A stretch of DNA of 25,582 nucleotides from positions 1-25,582 of IMG/VR virus record IMGVR_UViG_3300046010_009176; one strand, written 5' to 3'. This document shows, one piece after another, positions 2,908 to 9,258 of this stretch. Every line of letters starts with the position of its first letter. Within the stretch, counting starts at the first letter, position 1. The DNA comes from a virus. A program made the position numbers and the translations under genes. The notes under the pieces were generated by a model. It was not told the origin of the DNA and made no database searches. It was given only the letters and a program-made list of their open reading frames with translations.

Positions 2908-3945
2908 TTATTTTTTAAAACTATTTAATACTTTAAATGTATTGTTAATTGTTATTTCTGGATCTTTTATCATTTTTCCTAAACCGTCTTCATTATAAAG
3001 TAATGAAAATGTTTTGATATCCAAAGCTGGAGTTGATTCTTCAATTAAATTTTCTAGAAGTTGTTTTTCTGAATCATCAACAAGTGGTTTTCCCAAATCC
3101 ATAATTTTGAAATTATTTTTTAATCGTTCTTCATCTTGGATTATTCTAGCATAAACAACATGGTCTTTTATTTTAGACTCAGCTATTTCCATCAAGTCAT
3201 CAAATGTTAAAGGACGTTCAAGTAATTCAGGAAATTTTTTAAATATACCTTTTTCACCTAAACCTTTAATACCTCCTACTTTATCTGATTGGTCACCTAA
3301 TAATGTTTTGTATAAAATGAAGTTCTCAGCTAAAACACCAAAATTCTTTTTTACTGTATCTTTGGTGTAAAATTCCTTTTCTGCCGGTCTATACACTGTT
3401 ATATTTTCATTTACCAACTGAATAAAGTCCCGGTCATTAGATAATATGAAAACCTTAGAATCATATTTACTAGACAATGTACTACTTAAATAAGCAATAA
3501 TATCATCTGCTTCAACTTTATTGATACTAATGGTTTTAACAGGTAAACATCTTAGATAATGAATTAGTCTAACTGTTTGATTTATTTTGGAATCATGTTC
3601 TTCTTCTAAAGAATCAAATACATCCCAATTAGTAATTCTAGTTAAATTTCTACCAGATTTATATTCAGGTAATAAATTTTTTCTGTTAATAGAAGAACCA
3701 GCACCATCAAATACAACGTAAACCGATGTTGGTTGTAGCTGATTAATGGTATAATTTAGTGAGCGTAAAAAACCTCCTAGACCACCAATATGAATTCCAT
3801 CTTGGTTAACCATTTTTATCATAGCAAAGTTTCTGAAAAATAAATTCAATCCATCAATAAGTAAAACCCGTTCATGAGGATTTGTAATTATTTCTTCTTC
3901 CTTGGTTACTTTGCCTAGGAGGTTCATTAGTTCACTCTTGTTCAT
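2908..3945 (-). CDS. 5'-3' exonuclease / flap endonuclease, T4 RNase H-like
   Basis: This PIN-like nuclease would remove RNA primers and 5' flaps during lagging-strand synthesis. The metal-binding acidic residues of the family are visible: D31 in LLIDGLNLFFRNF, D80 in VVFDGAG, E145/D147/D148 in VEADDIIAYL, D171/D173 in LSNDRDF and D218/D221 in LLGDQSDKVGG. The last leads into the helix-turn-helix GIKGLGEKG (225-233) that contacts DNA. The conserved NRKNLLPEYKSGR arch-side motif is at 87-99. At 345 residues it is somewhat longer than T4 RNase H (305), with a 25-residue lead before the first strand. It lies 39 bases after uvsX, and that gap carries its own promoter-like sequence. It could equally be called a PolI-type 5' nuclease domain protein; no polymerase domain is attached. 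Confidence 0.88.
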   Translation of the reverse strand: MNKSELMNLLGKVTKEEEIITNPHERVLLIDGLNLFFRNFAMIKMVNQDGIHIGGLGGFLRSLNYTINQLQPTSVYVVFDGAGSSINRKNLLPEYKSGRNLTRITNWDVFDSLEEEHDSKINQTVRLIHYLRCLPVKTISINKVEADDIIAYLSSTLSSKYDSKVFILSNDRDFIQLVNENITVYRPAEKEFYTKDTVKKNFGVLAENFILYKTLLGDQSDKVGGIKGLGEKGIFKKFPELLERPLTFDDLMEIAESKIKDHVVYARIIQDEERLKNNFKIMDLGKPLVDDSEKQLLENLIEESTPALDIKTFSLLYNEDGLGKMIKDPEITINNTFKVLNSFKK

Positions 3946-3953
3946 ATTAATTA

Positions 3954-3982
3954 AATATAATATAAATTTTTGAATAATCCAA
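3954..3982 (-). promoter_or_regulatory. Candidate promoter of the exonuclease gene
   Basis: On the minus strand TTGGAT (3977-3982) is followed after exactly 17 bases by TATATT (3954-3959), 8 bases before the exonuclease ATG. The -35/-10 geometry matches four other sites in this window. The TTGGATTATTCAA here is an imperfect version of the inverted repeat found at the others. The leader would be extremely short or absent, so internal expression within the operon is uncertain. Confidence 0.4.
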
Positions 3983-3984
3983 GC

Positions 3985-5079
3985 TTAATCCTCATCCATT
4001 AAATCTAAAGGAATATCTCTTGTTGACTCATTCCAATCTGAAGCATCTTCAATGATTTCAAATTTACCTTCACCAAGAATATTTCTCCATTCACTAGAGT
4101 GTGCTTTTTTATATTCATCAATGTCCCTTTTCTCATCTTCAATAAAACCGTGAATAGTTGCTACTACTGTATTTTTAGTTTGTAGTCCTGTAACGTGGTT
4201 TTTATCACATGATACTTTGGTACGAACAGCAAATTCAACTTCTTTACCATCTTTAGTTGCTTTGATTTTACTAGTACCACTATTAGTAATATTACCAAAA
4301 GTTAATACAAGTGAGGCATCTAAAAACATAGTTTCACCATTTTTCATTTTCATTTTAGGCTGAGACATAATTGTTTCAGCTGGTGCAACCCAAATTTTAT
4401 TAATGGCTACCATTGAATTAGTGTATGGTGCATTTTCTTTTCTAGATAGAGGAAAACGTTGGTTGATAAAATTACCAAATTGTTGAGACATGGCTCCTGC
4501 ATTCCACATTGGGTTGTTTTTGTTTGCTTCAACACTCATTTTACAAGGTATTGAACCAATCGAATCCCAGAAGAAACATAAATCATAAGGTAAATTACCT
4601 TTTTTCTGTTCGTCTAATAAATCAGCAATAAATTCAGCTACGTCCTCAATAGTGCCCAATGATGTTCTATCACGATAAATAAAGAAACCAGTGTGGTCAA
4701 CTACTTCACCTGTGTTTTCATCGATTACATCATCGAGTTGAAAACCCATTGTGCGAGCATGTTCCCACGACCATTTCATTTCAGTAATAATAAAAACAGG
4801 TAAGATACCCATTTTTTGAGCGCTGATTGCTAACTCAAGTAATGCTGTAGTCTTACCTGTATTACTATGACCTCTTAATAAAGTGATATGACCCATTGGT
4901 GCTCCTGCTACAGAAATTGATTCTTGTAACGCTTCTGAGAATGGAATCCATTTTTGTTCTTTGAACTTAACTGTTCCATTCAACAATTTCTTCTCCTTAA
5001 ATTTCTCAAGGTTGAAATTGGATTTAATTTCCGCGGATACGGCTTCCGTTAGCGATTCGCTTTTTTTAGGTCTTGGCAT
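3985..5079 (-). CDS. uvsX: UvsX-type RecA-like recombinase
   Basis: This is an ATP-dependent strand-exchange protein for recombination-dependent replication and repair. It would work on single strands coated by the neighbouring gp32-like protein. At 364 residues it is near T4 UvsX (391). Walker A is GHSNTGKT (70-77). The Walker B region YDLCFFWDSIGS (165-176) ends in the DS that RecA-family proteins use. A TEMKWSWEHAR segment (99-109) and an SMVAINKIW segment near the centre also fit the family. A Lys-rich start (MPRPKKSE) is followed by a short helical arm that may mediate filament contacts. It starts 17 bases after the SSB stop behind an A-rich leader. SSB then UvsX directly adjacent suggests coordinated expression. 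Bacterial RecA is less likely because of the T4-type context and the divergent core. Confidence 0.87.
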   Translation of the reverse strand: MPRPKKSESLTEAVSAEIKSNFNLEKFKEKKLLNGTVKFKEQKWIPFSEALQESISVAGAPMGHITLLRGHSNTGKTTALLELAISAQKMGILPVFIITEMKWSWEHARTMGFQLDDVIDENTGEVVDHTGFFIYRDRTSLGTIEDVAEFIADLLDEQKKGNLPYDLCFFWDSIGSIPCKMSVEANKNNPMWNAGAMSQQFGNFINQRFPLSRKENAPYTNSMVAINKIWVAPAETIMSQPKMKMKNGETMFLDASLVLTFGNITNSGTSKIKATKDGKEVEFAVRTKVSCDKNHVTGLQTKNTVVATIHGFIEDEKRDIDEYKKAHSSEWRNILGEGKFEIIEDASDWNESTRDIPLDLMDED

Positions 5080-5095
5080 AACTTTAATTTTTTAA

Positions 5096-5923
5096 TTAGA
5101 AAGGTAAATCATCTGTTTGATCTTCATCAAATAAAGAATCAAATTTATCTACCTTAGATGTTTTTGAAGTTTGTAGAGTGTAATTTGTGTCTGGAGTGTC
5201 GTTCAATTCTTCTGGTGAATCTTCATCTACAACTTCTTCTGCTGCATCTTCTGGAGTCAACCAATTTTGAAGTACTTCTTTCAAATCATCAAAATTCATT
5301 TTTCTTTGGATTTCCAAAAGAGTTGGTTGTTCGTTCAACAAAGTTTTAATCAATGAAGCATCTGAAACTATTGGAGAAGTTTTAGGTTTAATTCTGATAG
5401 ATGATTTCAATCCTTGACGACCACCAACATCACCTTTAACTACATCAACGGTAAAATCTCTACCTTCATTGATGTCTGTGTAATCTCCGTAATCTTCATC
5501 TTCAGCAATACCTAGAAGTTGCATGTAAATTTCTTTACCAAATTCCCAAAGGCGCACACCTTTTTCTTCTTCACCCCTAACAATAACAGGAGCATAAACT
5601 CTCATTTTAGGGTCTAGTTTTTTAGCCAATGACCAGTTTTCTTTGTCATTAGTTTTTCTTAGTTGAGAAGCAAACTCAACAATGGGGTCTTTTTCTCCCC
5701 AGTTAGTAAGAGCAAAAATAGGAAATTTTCCGAACCCGTAGTGAACAAAAACCTCTTGAAATGGGTTTTTAGGATTCAATTTAGAAGGTACAATACGAAT
5801 TTGAAACTTTCCCTCTTGTTTTGGTTTCCAATAAACTTTTGTGTAATCAATTTTTTCTTTCTTGCCTGTGTTGTTCGTCGACTGTAAAGCATTTAGTCGT
5901 TGTTTAATTGCATTAATATCCAT
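5096..5923 (-). CDS. Single-stranded DNA-binding protein, T4 gp32-like, without zinc site
   Basis: This would coat single-stranded DNA at the fork and recruit replication and recombination proteins. The core (about residues 30-190) carries gp32-type segments: YWKPKQEGKFQIRIVPSK, the aromatic-rich FVHYGFGKFPIFAL and LWEFGKEIYMQLLGI. A low-complexity acidic tail from about residue 225 ends in DEDQTDDLPF. It has 275 residues against 301 in T4. Unlike T4 gp32 it contains no cysteine at all, so the zinc-binding subdomain is missing or replaced. The acidic tail ending in a DDLPF tip resembles the interaction tip of bacterial SSB, perhaps by convergence. It is the first gene of the replication cassette, with its own promoter-like sequence and a hairpin just upstream. 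Confidence 0.82.
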   Translation of the reverse strand: MDINAIKQRLNALQSTNNTGKKEKIDYTKVYWKPKQEGKFQIRIVPSKLNPKNPFQEVFVHYGFGKFPIFALTNWGEKDPIVEFASQLRKTNDKENWSLAKKLDPKMRVYAPVIVRGEEEKGVRLWEFGKEIYMQLLGIAEDEDYGDYTDINEGRDFTVDVVKGDVGGRQGLKSSIRIKPKTSPIVSDASLIKTLLNEQPTLLEIQRKMNFDDLKEVLQNWLTPEDAAEEVVDEDSPEELNDTPDTNYTLQTSKTSKVDKFDSLFDEDQTDDLPF

Positions 5924-5951
5924 AATTTTATTTATTTAGTTTAATATTAGT

Positions 5952-5980
5952 AATATAAGAACGAGGTGTTGTATAACCAA
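5952..5980 (-). promoter_or_regulatory. Candidate promoter of the SSB-UvsX replication cassette
   Basis: On the minus strand TTGGTT (5975-5980), 17 bases, then TATATT (5952-5957), about 28 bases before the SSB ATG. The segment TTGGTTATACAA matches the TTGG..AT.CAA inverted repeat seen at the polymerase and L/I-x-E protein promoters. It lies directly after the hairpin at 5989-6009, so a new transcript probably begins here. Confidence 0.45.
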
Positions 5981-5988
5981 GTTAAAGT

Positions 5989-6009
5989 GGGCCCTCTTTT
6001 AAAGGGCCC
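5989..6009 (-). terminator. Hairpin terminator after the 322-residue gene
   Basis: GGGCCC arms at 5989-5994 and 6004-6009 extend by three more pairs (one G-T wobble) around a 3-base loop. It stands 20 bases after the 322-residue gene and before the SSB promoter. The following minus-strand tract (ACTTTAAC) is only weakly T-rich. The plus-strand side (TTAATTTTTATTT) is richer, so it may act in both directions. Confidence 0.55.
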
Positions 6010-6029
6010 TTAATTTTTATTTATTTCTT

Positions 6030-6998
6030 TTAAACGAGATTAGAACTAATATATAATTCTACACCATTAACAATAATTTTCTTGGCCAAAGAACGGAATT
6101 TAGTAATTTTATTTTTATCAAAAGCCATTTGAAAAAATGGTTTTTTTACTTCTTTTCCGGTTGGTACATTACTATATCCTGCTCTATAATCATAATTTGC
6201 AGGTTTTCTTCTAACATATTCTGGAAGCATAACATACATTTGTACTAAATCCTCATTTCCTTCAATAAGTTCACTAGGATTAGCTTCTACTTCATCAAAA
6301 AGTTTTTTTCTTCGTTCTTGATTACTTTCATATTCAGCTGCTTTAGATGTTTTATCTGCTACTTCATCAAAATTTTGTTTTACAAAGTCAAGTACAGATT
6401 CTGTTCCTTTTGCTCCTTTTTCTCTTTTTCCATATAAAGAAAGTTTACCTTGTTGTTTTAATTGTCTTACTGCTTTTCTAACTTCAGCTTCTTTTCCTTT
6501 ATATTCTTTATGTTGTTCTAGGAAAAAATCTGTATCCCATGAAGCTTTATATTCACCGTCACTTTGAGCAGCATCATCTTGTAACAAATCCCAAAAGTCT
6601 AAAAGATCTTGTTCTAATGTGTTCTCTTCTTCATTTAAACGAGATTCATTTATTCCATCAGGTTCACTAAAGAAATAGAAACTCATTTCTTCACGCATAG
6701 CATCTTCTAATTGTTTATCAGACATTTGTTCAACATCTTCAAGATATTGTTCAAATTCTCCCCAACCTTCATCATCTTTAATAAATTGTTTAGCTGAGAC
6801 TTCTTTATTATTAAATTGTTTTAGATATTCAAGTGCTTTTTGTTGATCAATATAATAGAAATCATATTCATCATCACTCTCCTCTTCATCTTTAACAACG
6901 TATTTGTTTTTAATTTTACCTTCGTTTAAACGAGACTGACTAGTGATTTTGTTTTCAACTAGCCATTTACTAGAGTCAAAGTTATCTGCTTTTTTCAT
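6030..6998 (-). CDS. Unknown acidic protein with RLNE motifs, 322 residues
   Basis: I do not recognise an enzymatic family. The protein is strongly charged, with acidic runs around residues 37-47 and 74-130 and a Lys/Glu-rich helical centre. It has no signal peptide or membrane segment. The sequence SRLNEG occurs at residues 22-27, and a second INESRLNEEE lies at 117-126. These L/I-x-E tetrads resemble sites cut by T4-type prohead proteases, which raises the possibility of an internal head protein with a removable N-terminal targeting peptide. That is inference; no head gene is visible here. The gene has its own promoter, a copy of the 49-base repeat shared with the preceding gene, and ends before a GC hairpin, so it looks like a single-gene transcription unit between the polymerase and replication modules. 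Confidence 0.7.
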   Translation of the reverse strand: MKKADNFDSSKWLVENKITSQSRLNEGKIKNKYVVKDEEESDDEYDFYYIDQQKALEYLKQFNNKEVSAKQFIKDDEGWGEFEQYLEDVEQMSDKQLEDAMREEMSFYFFSEPDGINESRLNEEENTLEQDLLDFWDLLQDDAAQSDGEYKASWDTDFFLEQHKEYKGKEAEVRKAVRQLKQQGKLSLYGKREKGAKGTESVLDFVKQNFDEVADKTSKAAEYESNQERRKKLFDEVEANPSELIEGNEDLVQMYVMLPEYVRRKPANYDYRAGYSNVPTGKEVKKPFFQMAFDKNKITKFRSLAKKIIVNGVELYISSNLV

Positions 6999-7000
6999 GT

Positions 7001-7049
7001 TTATTAATATGTTATAAATATACGAAGGAAATTTTGGATTGCCAAATCT
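7001..7049. repeat. 49-base duplicated promoter element, copy 1
   Basis: This copy matches 7436-7484 at 47 of 49 positions, differing only at 7008 and 7023. Both copies lie immediately upstream of genes whose products carry L/I-x-E motifs. The sequence includes the -35, the inverted repeat and the -10 region. Confidence 0.85.
7017..7045 (-). promoter_or_regulatory. Promoter of the 322-residue gene
   Basis: On the minus strand TTGGCA (7040-7045), 17 bases, then TATATT (7017-7022), extended as TATATTTATAAC, about 18 bases before the ATG. The -35 is embedded in the inverted repeat TTTGG-CAAT-CCAAA (7033-7046), a possible operator. The near-perfect duplication at the next gene supports function. 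Confidence 0.6.
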
Positions 7050-7065
7050 GTTTTTGAATTAAAAT

Positions 7066-7086
7066 GAGCCCTCTTTTGAAGGGCTC
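7066..7086 (-). terminator. Hairpin terminator after the 108-residue gene
   Basis: GAGCCC (7066-7071) pairs with GGGCTC (7081-7086) around a 9-base interior that can add one or two pairs. It stands 13 bases after the 108-residue gene, with ATTTTAATT following on the minus strand and TTTATTTTTT on the plus side. It closely resembles the hairpin at 5989-6009 in layout. Confidence 0.55.
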
Positions 7087-7099
7087 TTTATTTTTTAAT

Positions 7100-7426
7100 T
7101 TATTTTTTAGACCTTGCAATATCATATAATGAAGTATTAGATAATTTTATTTCTTTACCGTCTTCAATTTTAACTCTAGCTGTATTACTTCTACCATCTT
7201 TGGGGAGATCAATAGATAAGATTTTAACTTTTTCTTTATGTTTAAAAAATTCACCATCCTCATCAGGTGACCTTAAAAAGAAATCTCCAGATTTAAAATC
7301 TTCAGGAGTAATTTCAAGATATTTGTGAGTTTTTTCAAAATTTTCATTTAAAATTTGCATCATTTTTTTAGCTTGGCCTTCAGTGATTACACCAGCTAAT
7401 TGATTCATTCTAATTATGTCTTTCAT
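7100..7426 (-). CDS. Unknown 108-residue protein with N-terminal LAGVITE motif
   Basis: There is no recognised family. Residues 1-30 form a predicted helix (MKDIIRMNQLAGVITEGQ) holding ITE at about 14-16 and LNE at 27-29. Both are L/I-x-E tetrads of the type cut by T4 prohead protease. The rest is a small basic domain with probable beta strands (EKVKILSIDL, TARVKIEDGKEIKLS). It may be a small internal head protein, but a DNA-binding accessory factor is equally possible. It is transcribed from its own promoter, a copy of the 49-base repeat, and ends just before the hairpin at 7066-7086. The two adjacent genes therefore look like parallel, separately controlled single-gene units. Confidence 0.65.
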   Translation of the reverse strand: MKDIIRMNQLAGVITEGQAKKMMQILNENFEKTHKYLEITPEDFKSGDFFLRSPDEDGEFFKHKEKVKILSIDLPKDGRSNTARVKIEDGKEIKLSNTSLYDIARSKK

Positions 7427-7435
7427 TTTATTGTT

Positions 7436-7484
7436 TTATTAACATGTTATAAATATATGAAGGAAATTTTGGATTGCCAAATCT
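7436..7484. repeat. 49-base duplicated promoter element, copy 2
   Basis: This is the partner of 7001-7049, with 47 of 49 identical bases. It occupies almost the whole gap between the 153-residue and 108-residue genes. Confidence 0.85.
7452..7480 (-). promoter_or_regulatory. Promoter of the 108-residue gene
   Basis: On the minus strand TTGGCA (7475-7480), 17 bases, then TATATT (7452-7457), extended as TATATTTATAAC. The inverted repeat TTTGG-CAAT-CCAAA (7468-7481) overlaps the -35. The spacing to the ATG is about 25 bases. Confidence 0.6.
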
Positions 7485-7489
7485 TTCTT

Positions 7490-7951
7490 TTACAGCTCAA
7501 TAATTTTATAAATTTTTGTATTAAATTGTTTTAACTCGTTATGGTTAGTTAATAAAATACAATTTTTATAATGTTGCCAATTTACACGATATGATGGGTC
7601 AACTACTCCTCCATTTAATTTTTTAATCAAATCATTTAGAGCATTGATTGTATACAAAGTGTTAGTTTCCTTTTTTCTATGTACTAAAATAGTATTTAAA
7701 GGAATACCTTCAACATTGCCTTGTTCTACATTATATGTTACAACATACTCGTTTGTACTTTTTACATGTAAAACAAACATCTTATTATACATTATGGAAT
7801 AGGCCATAGTCAAACCATTAATTAGTTCATCTAATTGTTCCAAATCCGTAAAAGTACAAAATAGTTTATTATTTAGCATATCTGCATTCGTATCAAAGTC
7901 GTATTGATTATACATATGGCTAATTTCTTGTAAAATCGTATGTGTTTCCAT
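7490..7951 (-). CDS. Unknown protein overlapping the polymerase gene, 153 residues
   Basis: I recognise no family. The product begins METHTILQEISHMYNQYDFD. It shows no membrane segment, signal peptide or cysteine cluster; the only cysteines are at about 32 and 130. The C-terminal part (from about residue 100) reads NALNDLIKKLNGG and then VNWQHYKNCILL, suggesting a small alpha/beta fold. The ATG at 7951 lies inside the polymerase gene, giving a 32-base overlap, so translation is probably coupled to the polymerase. That makes a polymerase-associated role plausible but unproven. The gene ends 6 bases before the duplicated promoter. Confidence 0.7.
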   Translation of the reverse strand: METHTILQEISHMYNQYDFDTNADMLNNKLFCTFTDLEQLDELINGLTMAYSIMYNKMFVLHVKSTNEYVVTYNVEQGNVEGIPLNTILVHRKKETNTLYTINALNDLIKKLNGGVVDPSYRVNWQHYKNCILLTNHNELKQFNTKIYKIIEL

Positions 7952-9209
7952 AACTTGTTTTTGTTGTTAATTTATATTTTTTAAAAATGTTTTGTATTTC
8001 GTTTTCAATGTCTTCCTCACCCTCTCCTATTTGAAAAAGGAAACTGTCATAAGTATAAAGTACAATTTTAGTTTTCCTCCCCATCAATAACTTATGTATA
8101 TCCATTAGTATGTAAGTGTTTATAGCACTCTCCATGTTTTGTAACATGTAGTTAAAAAGTTTTTGAGGATTCATATTTTCCATCTTATCCTTTTCAAAAC
8201 AATAACCCGAAATCGGTACAATAACTTGACCTGAGTTATTAAATTCTTTCCAGTTATTGTTAATAAATTCTTTTACTTGTTGAAAAAATTCAAGGTGCTC
8301 ATACTCTTTAGATATACCTCCATAAAGCTGTTTGAACGTGATTTGTTTCGCTTCCTTATAGCTCGTCTGGTATAGATCGGCGAACGCCTGATGGACATCC
8401 AAATGGCCAAAGTCATAGGTAAGCAAACGGCCGATAATAGTAGGATGGAATGCACTAATATCAAACTCCACAAACCCATGACTCGATATGAAGCCTCTCC
8501 TTGAGCCATTTTCTTTGTTTATTGCGGCAAAATTAATGCCATTAAAAGAGTTACTTGGTCTACGTGTTGTTGTAGCCAAATTGTAATTGGTGAAAATGTG
8601 ATCGCCTTTGATTGAATAAAATTCTTGATCGAGTTCATAGTGTTTATCAAATTCATATTTATTTATTTTAATTCCGTTTTTTTCAATCCCAAAAAATGCC
8701 AACACTACCTTATTGTTGTAAAAATCAAACCAAGAGGGTAGTTCCTTAGGCATTGCATTACGAACGTGTTCATAAATATGTTCACACCTTTCATAATGTT
8801 TGGATATGGGTATTATTTTATTTGTTTTATCGTAATTTGGATATTTGGAGTAAAAATGGTTGTGTGTTTTACTGTCTTGTATATACGGAGGAATAAGTTG
8901 GGATAGGTCATGCAAGCATTTAATCGGAAAATAATATAAAGCTTGTTTTTTATCTTGTACCCATACTCGTTCTATATTTTGTAGTATGCCGTCTATAACC
9001 GTCTTATTAAGCGAGAATGATTCACTATGGTCAATACATAACATATAGCCTTTCGTGTCATTAAACGGTCTAATATACACTAAAGAAACTTCGTTTAATA
9101 CAGGGTGTATTTTGTCATGGTAAGGAATGATTTCAACAAATGCCTCTTTTATAGGTTTTTGTTTTAAATAGTCTAATTGTTCTATATTTTCTATTAACCA
9201 GAATGCCAT
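7920..9209 (-). CDS. Family A DNA polymerase, compact form
   Basis: This is probably the replicative DNA polymerase. Family A palm motifs appear in order, numbered from the ATG chosen here: motif A with catalytic Asp in EFDISAFHPTII (D250), motif B as AKQITFKQLYGG (K288 to G298) and motif C as LYTYDSFLF (D388). A TTRRPSNSFNGINFAAIN stretch before motif A corresponds to the TGR-type template-contact region. Residues 1-170 are poorly conserved and lack clear DEDD exonuclease motifs. I chose the ATG at 9209 (429 residues). An upstream TTG at 9254 and ATG at 9230 are in frame, but they lie within or before the -10 of the promoter at 9226-9254, whereas the 9209 ATG follows AAGG and begins MAFWLIENIEQL. 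Motif C has YDS instead of the usual HDE. Confidence 0.82.
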   Translation of the reverse strand: MAFWLIENIEQLDYLKQKPIKEAFVEIIPYHDKIHPVLNEVSLVYIRPFNDTKGYMLCIDHSESFSLNKTVIDGILQNIERVWVQDKKQALYYFPIKCLHDLSQLIPPYIQDSKTHNHFYSKYPNYDKTNKIIPISKHYERCEHIYEHVRNAMPKELPSWFDFYNNKVVLAFFGIEKNGIKINKYEFDKHYELDQEFYSIKGDHIFTNYNLATTTRRPSNSFNGINFAAINKENGSRRGFISSHGFVEFDISAFHPTIIGRLLTYDFGHLDVHQAFADLYQTSYKEAKQITFKQLYGGISKEYEHLEFFQQVKEFINNNWKEFNNSGQVIVPISGYCFEKDKMENMNPQKLFNYMLQNMESAINTYILMDIHKLLMGRKTKIVLYTYDSFLFQIGEGEEDIENEIQNIFKKYKLTTKTSYGNTYDFTRN

Positions 9210-9225
9210 AACCTTGATTGATATA

Positions 9226-9254
9226 AACATAATAAAAAAAGCTTGGATGACCAA
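9226..9254 (-). promoter_or_regulatory. Candidate promoter of the polymerase gene
   Basis: On the minus strand TTGGTC (9249-9254), 17 bases, then TATGTT (9226-9231), extended as TATGTTTATATC. TTGGTCATCCAA repeats the inverted-repeat pattern of the other promoters. It implies a transcript start near 9219 and a leader of about 10 bases before the ATG at 9209. Confidence 0.5.
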
Positions 9255-9258
9255 GCTT
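9234..9258 (-). terminator. Intrinsic terminator ending the tail operon
   Basis: AAGCTTGG (9239-9246) and CCAAGCTT (9251-9258) form an 8-bp stem with a 4-base loop. On the minus strand seven T follow (9234-9240), a textbook arrangement. It lies 8 bases after the stop of the 222-residue structural gene. The same bases form the -35 region of the polymerase promoter. Confidence 0.75.

Follow-up and report, generated by a model that had tools for sequence, protein, structure and literature searches.

A putative early promoter class, in part fused to terminators, in T4-like phages related to Flavobacterium phage immuto

Five promoter-like sequences in a viral genome fragment are best explained, with a probability of roughly 0.6, as members of a genome-wide early (pre-late) promoter class of Bacteroidetes phages that resembles the early promoters of T4 and is in some copies fused to a terminator. 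The fragment (hereafter the window) is the whole stretch of 25,582 nucleotides analysed here, IMG/VR record IMGVR_UViG_3300046010_009176. In the proposed architecture, A-tracts at about -53 and -43 would lie upstream of a TTTGGC box (around -36 to -31), which a rigid gap separates from a T-rich extended element and TATATTTA (-12 to -5). Transcription by host RNA polymerase would most likely start about 5 nt below TATATTTA, often a few bases from the ATG. Owing to the short intergenic space, roughly a fifth to a third of the copies are thought to be fused to the intrinsic terminator of the preceding gene. In a fused copy, the TTGG box would fall within the 5' arm of an RNA hairpin, the spacer would provide the loop and 3' arm, and the T-run would meet the -10 element. 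Such fusion would explain the strong inverted repeats found at these promoters.

Sequence comparison identifies the window as part of a T4-like phage genome akin to that of Flavobacterium phage immuto (58% identity between the two UvsX proteins). Both have polymerase, small genes, SSB, UvsX, exonuclease and DnaB-type helicase in this order (Table 1). The host is presumably of Flavobacterium type, to judge from immuto, which infects Flavobacterium sp. LMO8 and is the sole relative here with a known host. Environmental loci with a related UvsX were collected (n = 80), and the class was analysed in the window and nine longer related records, immuto among them. A short motif like RMQKLAGII recurs in the protein encoded at 7100-7426 of the window and in proteins of immuto and of records G003, G006, G008 and G010, mostly near the N-terminus.

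Table 1. Coordinates of genes, predicted promoters and terminators in the window, and of candidate late sigma genes in related records
Feature	Position	Strand	Remarks
Polymerase-like gene, 429 aa	7920..9209	-	Counterpart of immuto DNA polymerase family A by position and relatives; no Pfam match
108-aa gene	7100..7426	-	No family match
322-aa gene	6030..6998	-	No family match
gp32-like single-strand DNA binding protein (SSB)	5096..5923	-	PF08804, E 1.2e-13
5'-3' exonuclease	2908..3945	-	PF02739, E 9.3e-34
Predicted early promoter, polymerase gene	9226..9254	-	TTGGTC-N17-TATGTT; score 26.0
Predicted early promoter, 108-aa gene	7452..7480	-	Score 28.0; late-type core 7455-7447 over -10
Predicted early promoter, 322-aa gene	7017..7045	-	Score 29.2; late-type core 7020-7012 over -10
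Predicted early promoter, SSB	5952..5980	-	Score 24.5
Predicted early promoter, exonuclease	3954..3982	-	Score 25.6; directly after uvsX stop codon
Putative intrinsic terminator of 222-aa gene, fused with promoter	9239..9258	-	AAGCTTGG-TCAT-CCAAGCTT then TTTTTTT; -13.4 kcal/mol
Terminator-like hairpin after 108-aa gene	7066..7086	-	Just upstream of 7045 promoter
Terminator-like hairpin after 322-aa gene	5989..6009	-	Just upstream of SSB promoter
Late-type elements ATATTTATAAYAAA before structural genes	24007-23999, 23986-23978, 20848-20840, 20268-20260, 19248-19240, 16226-16218	-	Window
Candidate late sigma genes	G004:80866-81576, G008:36814-37515, G010:147008-147718, G003:2457-3164		Homologue in immuto

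A motif with fixed spacing in the window and its relatives

All five minus-strand sites lie where the preliminary description had placed them, each with exactly 17 bases between TTGGNN and TATATT or TATGTT. TTGG-N19-TATRTT occurs five times on the coding strand of the window and not at all on the other strand, compared with a mean of 0.17 and a maximum of 2 in 300 dinucleotide shuffles of the coding strand. A matrix trained on the relatives alone scored the five sites at 24.5-29.2 and every other coding-strand position below 7; the best match on the opposite strand (17.0 at 9243) mirrors the hairpin at 9254. The TTGG..AT.CAA dyad reported at four of the sites was also recovered (four observed against 0.000 in shuffles for motif plus dyad), though these represent about three independent cases because the 7480 and 7045 copies are near-identical. 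At the fifth site (3982, TTGGATTATTCAA) the dyad is one base out of register.

In all nine relatives, the count of TTGG-Nk-TATNTT rises sharply at k = 19, on the sense strand only, and each related phage has 10 to 47 copies of the class. Across the window and relatives the matrix gave 331 sense matches, against 14 antisense and 12 with a reversed matrix. The consensus consists of RTTTGGC, a pyrimidine run, a short purine run and then TTnnTATATTTA, with rigid spacing; TTG at -35 to -33 is almost invariant and the base before it is mostly T. Immuto has a variant (AGTTGC with TTCnTATATTTA). Upstream A-tracts are also present, with A at 59-63% at -53/-52 (p 2e-4 and 1e-5) and 57% at -43 (p 0.002). 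Equal frequency within coding regions had been named as a finding that would speak against the motif; most matches lie instead in the 3-6% of the DNA that is non-coding in the window and nine relatives, usually with a start codon 4-45 nt downstream. Furthermore, individual sites are conserved: relative L005 keeps TTGG-N19-TATATT at the position of the polymerase promoter, close relatives keep the SSB promoter (three with TAGG instead of TTGG), and the exonuclease promoter retains TTGG and TATATT/TATCTT across nine relatives. We infer that the five sites belong to a genuine promoter-like class and predict that they are active.

In F. johnsoniae, transcripts start 4-5 nt below the -7 element (PMC6847099). 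By this rule, starts in the window are predicted near 9219, 7445, 7010, 5945 and 3947, the last of which would make the exonuclease message almost leaderless. For the polymerase gene, the most likely start codon is ATG 9209, matching the relatives, since the TTG at 9254 falls within the promoter. Of 111 promoters, 18 have an ATG exactly at the predicted start, whereas only a small fraction of messages is leaderless in the hosts studied (PMC6847099, PMC9723704). Among all relatives, the four bases before ATG are most often AGTT (122/1644), and GGTT is also frequent (55), giving a recurring start context of RGTTATG.

Genes served and candidate readers of the box

The class precedes arrays of small unnamed genes, one copy per gene, as well as the genes for polymerase, SSB, exonuclease, primase, GroES and NadR. 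A copy stands directly upstream of 2 of 125 immuto-named structural-gene matches and 49 of 236 named non-structural ones, a rough comparison given that many structural genes lie inside operons. The earlier assignment of these fixed-spacing sites to non-structural genes has therefore held up, and early (or early/middle) expression is the best reading of their timing. Structural genes bear a separate late element, ATATTTATAAYAAA, which has no conserved -35 box. It is found in the window and, in relatives, before the sheath, tube, hub, tape measure, portal and terminase genes. No further non-late promoter class was detected in the window and relatives. Host-type TAHHTTTG was considered as a second phage class and rejected, as it is not enriched before class-lacking genes and its intergenic copies are mostly by-products of the TTTGG box.

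At the 7480 and 7045 promoters, a late core (TATATTTATAAC) lies over the -10 element, an overlap shared by 7 of the 248 early sites, so that expression of the 108- and 322-aa genes may span both phases. A conserved protein of 234-237 aa with weak similarity to sigma region 2 and to phrog_234, a late sigma family, is a candidate counterpart of the late sigma gp55. Since relatives encode this protein, these phages plausibly have a late switch like that of T4.

The class had been attributed to a sigma70-like polymerase, which needs correcting: the host group has a divergent Bacteroidetes primary sigma with the published consensus TTTG / TAnnTTTG (PMC6847099, PMC9723704). In agreement with this consensus, TAHHTTTG is enriched in Flavobacteriia upstream DNA (117 vs 23 reversed), and TAHHTTTA is not (75 vs 62 reversed). 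The phage class shares the host-type TTTG near -33; at -5, most copies have A and only 2 of 248 have the host-type G. Moreover, TTTGG-N19-TATNTTTR shows no enrichment in ten Bacteroidetes genomes. Host sigma may therefore not recognise these promoters unaided.

A factor made by the phage or carried in the virion might instead read the TTTGGC box in the manner of MotA/AsiA and redirect host polymerase, in which case the class would be middle, or early but factor-dependent. This alternative is less likely but is the main rival: the box position matches that of the T4 MotA box (centred near -30), and both the departure from the host consensus at -5 and the lack of enrichment in host genomes would fit it, as would small candidate proteins shared by the relatives, one a DksA/TraR-type zinc finger and one ribbon-helix-helix-like. 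However, the MotA and AsiA families gave no match over the cut-off in the ten records (distant forms could be missed), the A-tracts suggest alpha-CTD contacts, and no other promoter class was detected from which such a factor could be expressed beforehand. Early reading by host polymerase, acting through the strong box and the upstream elements, is favoured over a phage factor, given that no second non-late class was seen. The mismatch with the host consensus in the -7 element makes phage capture of the Bacteroidetes polymerase a question that is directly testable in vitro.

Other candidates were also searched for in these records. There was no credible match to sigma region 4, and a search for single-subunit RNA polymerases matched neither these records nor its controls. 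An HTH_3-like small protein (G005, G006, G008 and G010) was considered as the regulator but set aside, being weak and not seen in all relatives. The DksA/TraR-type protein occurs in all nine relatives (e.g., immuto 60988-61395; PF01258 just below cut-off) and is a possible modifier of host polymerase. The second small protein, of about 63 aa (G001 at 39580, with homologues in all nine relatives), appears ribbon-helix-helix-like by eye, Pfam leaving this unconfirmed.

Inverted repeats and putative upstream terminators

A strong stem is present in 35% of 111 non-redundant promoters, compared with 8% after column shuffling. The stems vary in centre, length and loop, with UUCG and GAAA loops present. 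Their placement is restricted: among 38 strong hairpins at most 80 nt upstream of the -10 element, 26 end 1-8 nt before it, 12 have their end at or above the box and none ends between. Strong stems ending 1-8 nt before the -10 are found in 26 of 122 promoters, with T's coming next, and in the hairpin-bearing set the box is 2-37 nt past the upstream stop codon. Judged by this layout of stable stem and T-run, seen at the 9254 copy and in the fused copies, the strong hairpins look like intrinsic terminators of the upstream gene that share bases with the next promoter. Putative terminators, placed less tightly, occur upstream of late elements too. In the window, the dyad at 9254 forms an 8-bp terminator stem followed by T7 and is the only strong hairpin; the 7480 and 7045 copies fold weakly, and those at 5980 and 3982 do not fold at the dyad. 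Terminator-promoter fusion in the window is therefore firm at 9254 only.

Fusion also raises a more speculative and unlikely scenario. Polymerase halted at a fused hairpin might restart at the next -10 element and so read one-gene units in turn, with the class requiring a phage factor on account of its mismatch to the host -7 consensus. E. coli polymerase recycles in vitro to the nearest promoter after termination (PMC11347151), and the fused layout would favour such recycling. Terminator-promoter fusions would be natural templates for the study of post-termination polymerase recycling.

The preliminary description had proposed that a common regulator, presumably dimeric, binds a TTGG-N4-CCAA dyad over the -35 and controls all five genes. 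In its favour, the dyad is matched at four of the five window sites, its right half shows a general though weak YY-RR bias, and small possible DNA-binding proteins are present. Nevertheless, this model is now quite improbable, as the strict dyad is rare in relatives (14 matches in 12 records) and hairpin centres vary, along with loop and stem. In orthologous exonuclease and SSB promoters the right half drifts, whereas TTGG and TATATT are kept. A general covarying stem was rejected, since the pairs flanking the dyad do not covary, and no operator with the same half-sites and spacing was found class-wide. What is general across the class is TTTGGC followed by a weak pyrimidine-then-purine run. 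This bias persists at the dyad position in hairpin-free copies, so some sequence readout there is possible. The best reading of the strong inverted repeat is an upstream terminator folded into the next promoter, and not a sequence bound by a common regulator. Finally, chance matches in AT-rich DNA can be dismissed: the window has 31% G+C and a generic sigma-70 scan of it finds fewer sites than in shuffles, but shuffle, antisense and reversed-matrix controls give about 20- to 30-fold fewer matches to the class.

Comparison with known systems

In the open-access papers searched, nothing relevant on Flavobacterium phage promoters was found, nor any description of promoter classes in T4-like Bacteroidetes phages. 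With both classes mapped (TTTGGC with TATATTTA, and ATATTTATAAYAAA), expression timing could be predicted for many uncultured phage genomes.

T4 middle promoters, in which a MotA box is centred at -30 (PMC2988021), likewise combine a phage-specific box in the -35 region with a -10 element. They differ in the sequence of the box, in their use of MotA/AsiA, for which no match was obtained here, and in the upstream A-tracts of the present class. The T4 late promoter is TATAAATA. Structural genes of the Bacteroidetes phages similarly have a single -10-like element and no -35 box, but the element is ATATTTATAAYAAA, and among the five sites it is present only where it overlaps the 7480 and 7045 promoters.

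Bacterial adjacent terminator-promoter pairs (PMC11347151) likewise have a terminator immediately ahead of a co-directional promoter, whereas the phage hairpin shares bases with the promoter, lying between and over the -35 box and the -10 element. Bacteroidetes primary-sigma promoters (PMC6847099, PMC9723704, PMC7366714) share with the phage class TTTG near -33 and TA..TT at -12, -11, -8 and -7, in matching register. At -5 the phage class has A rather than G, and its strong TTTGGC box and rigid spacing contrast with the weak, variably spaced -33 element of the host.

The early promoters of T4 (UP/-35/TGn/-10; PMC2988021) resemble the class in their many copies per genome before arrays of small non-structural genes, UP-like A-tracts upstream of the -35, strong -35 box, extended -10 and fixed spacing. 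In the phages described here, TTTGGC and TATATTTA take the place of the sigma70 hexamers, the host is of the Bacteroidetes, and fusion to a terminator appears to be frequent.
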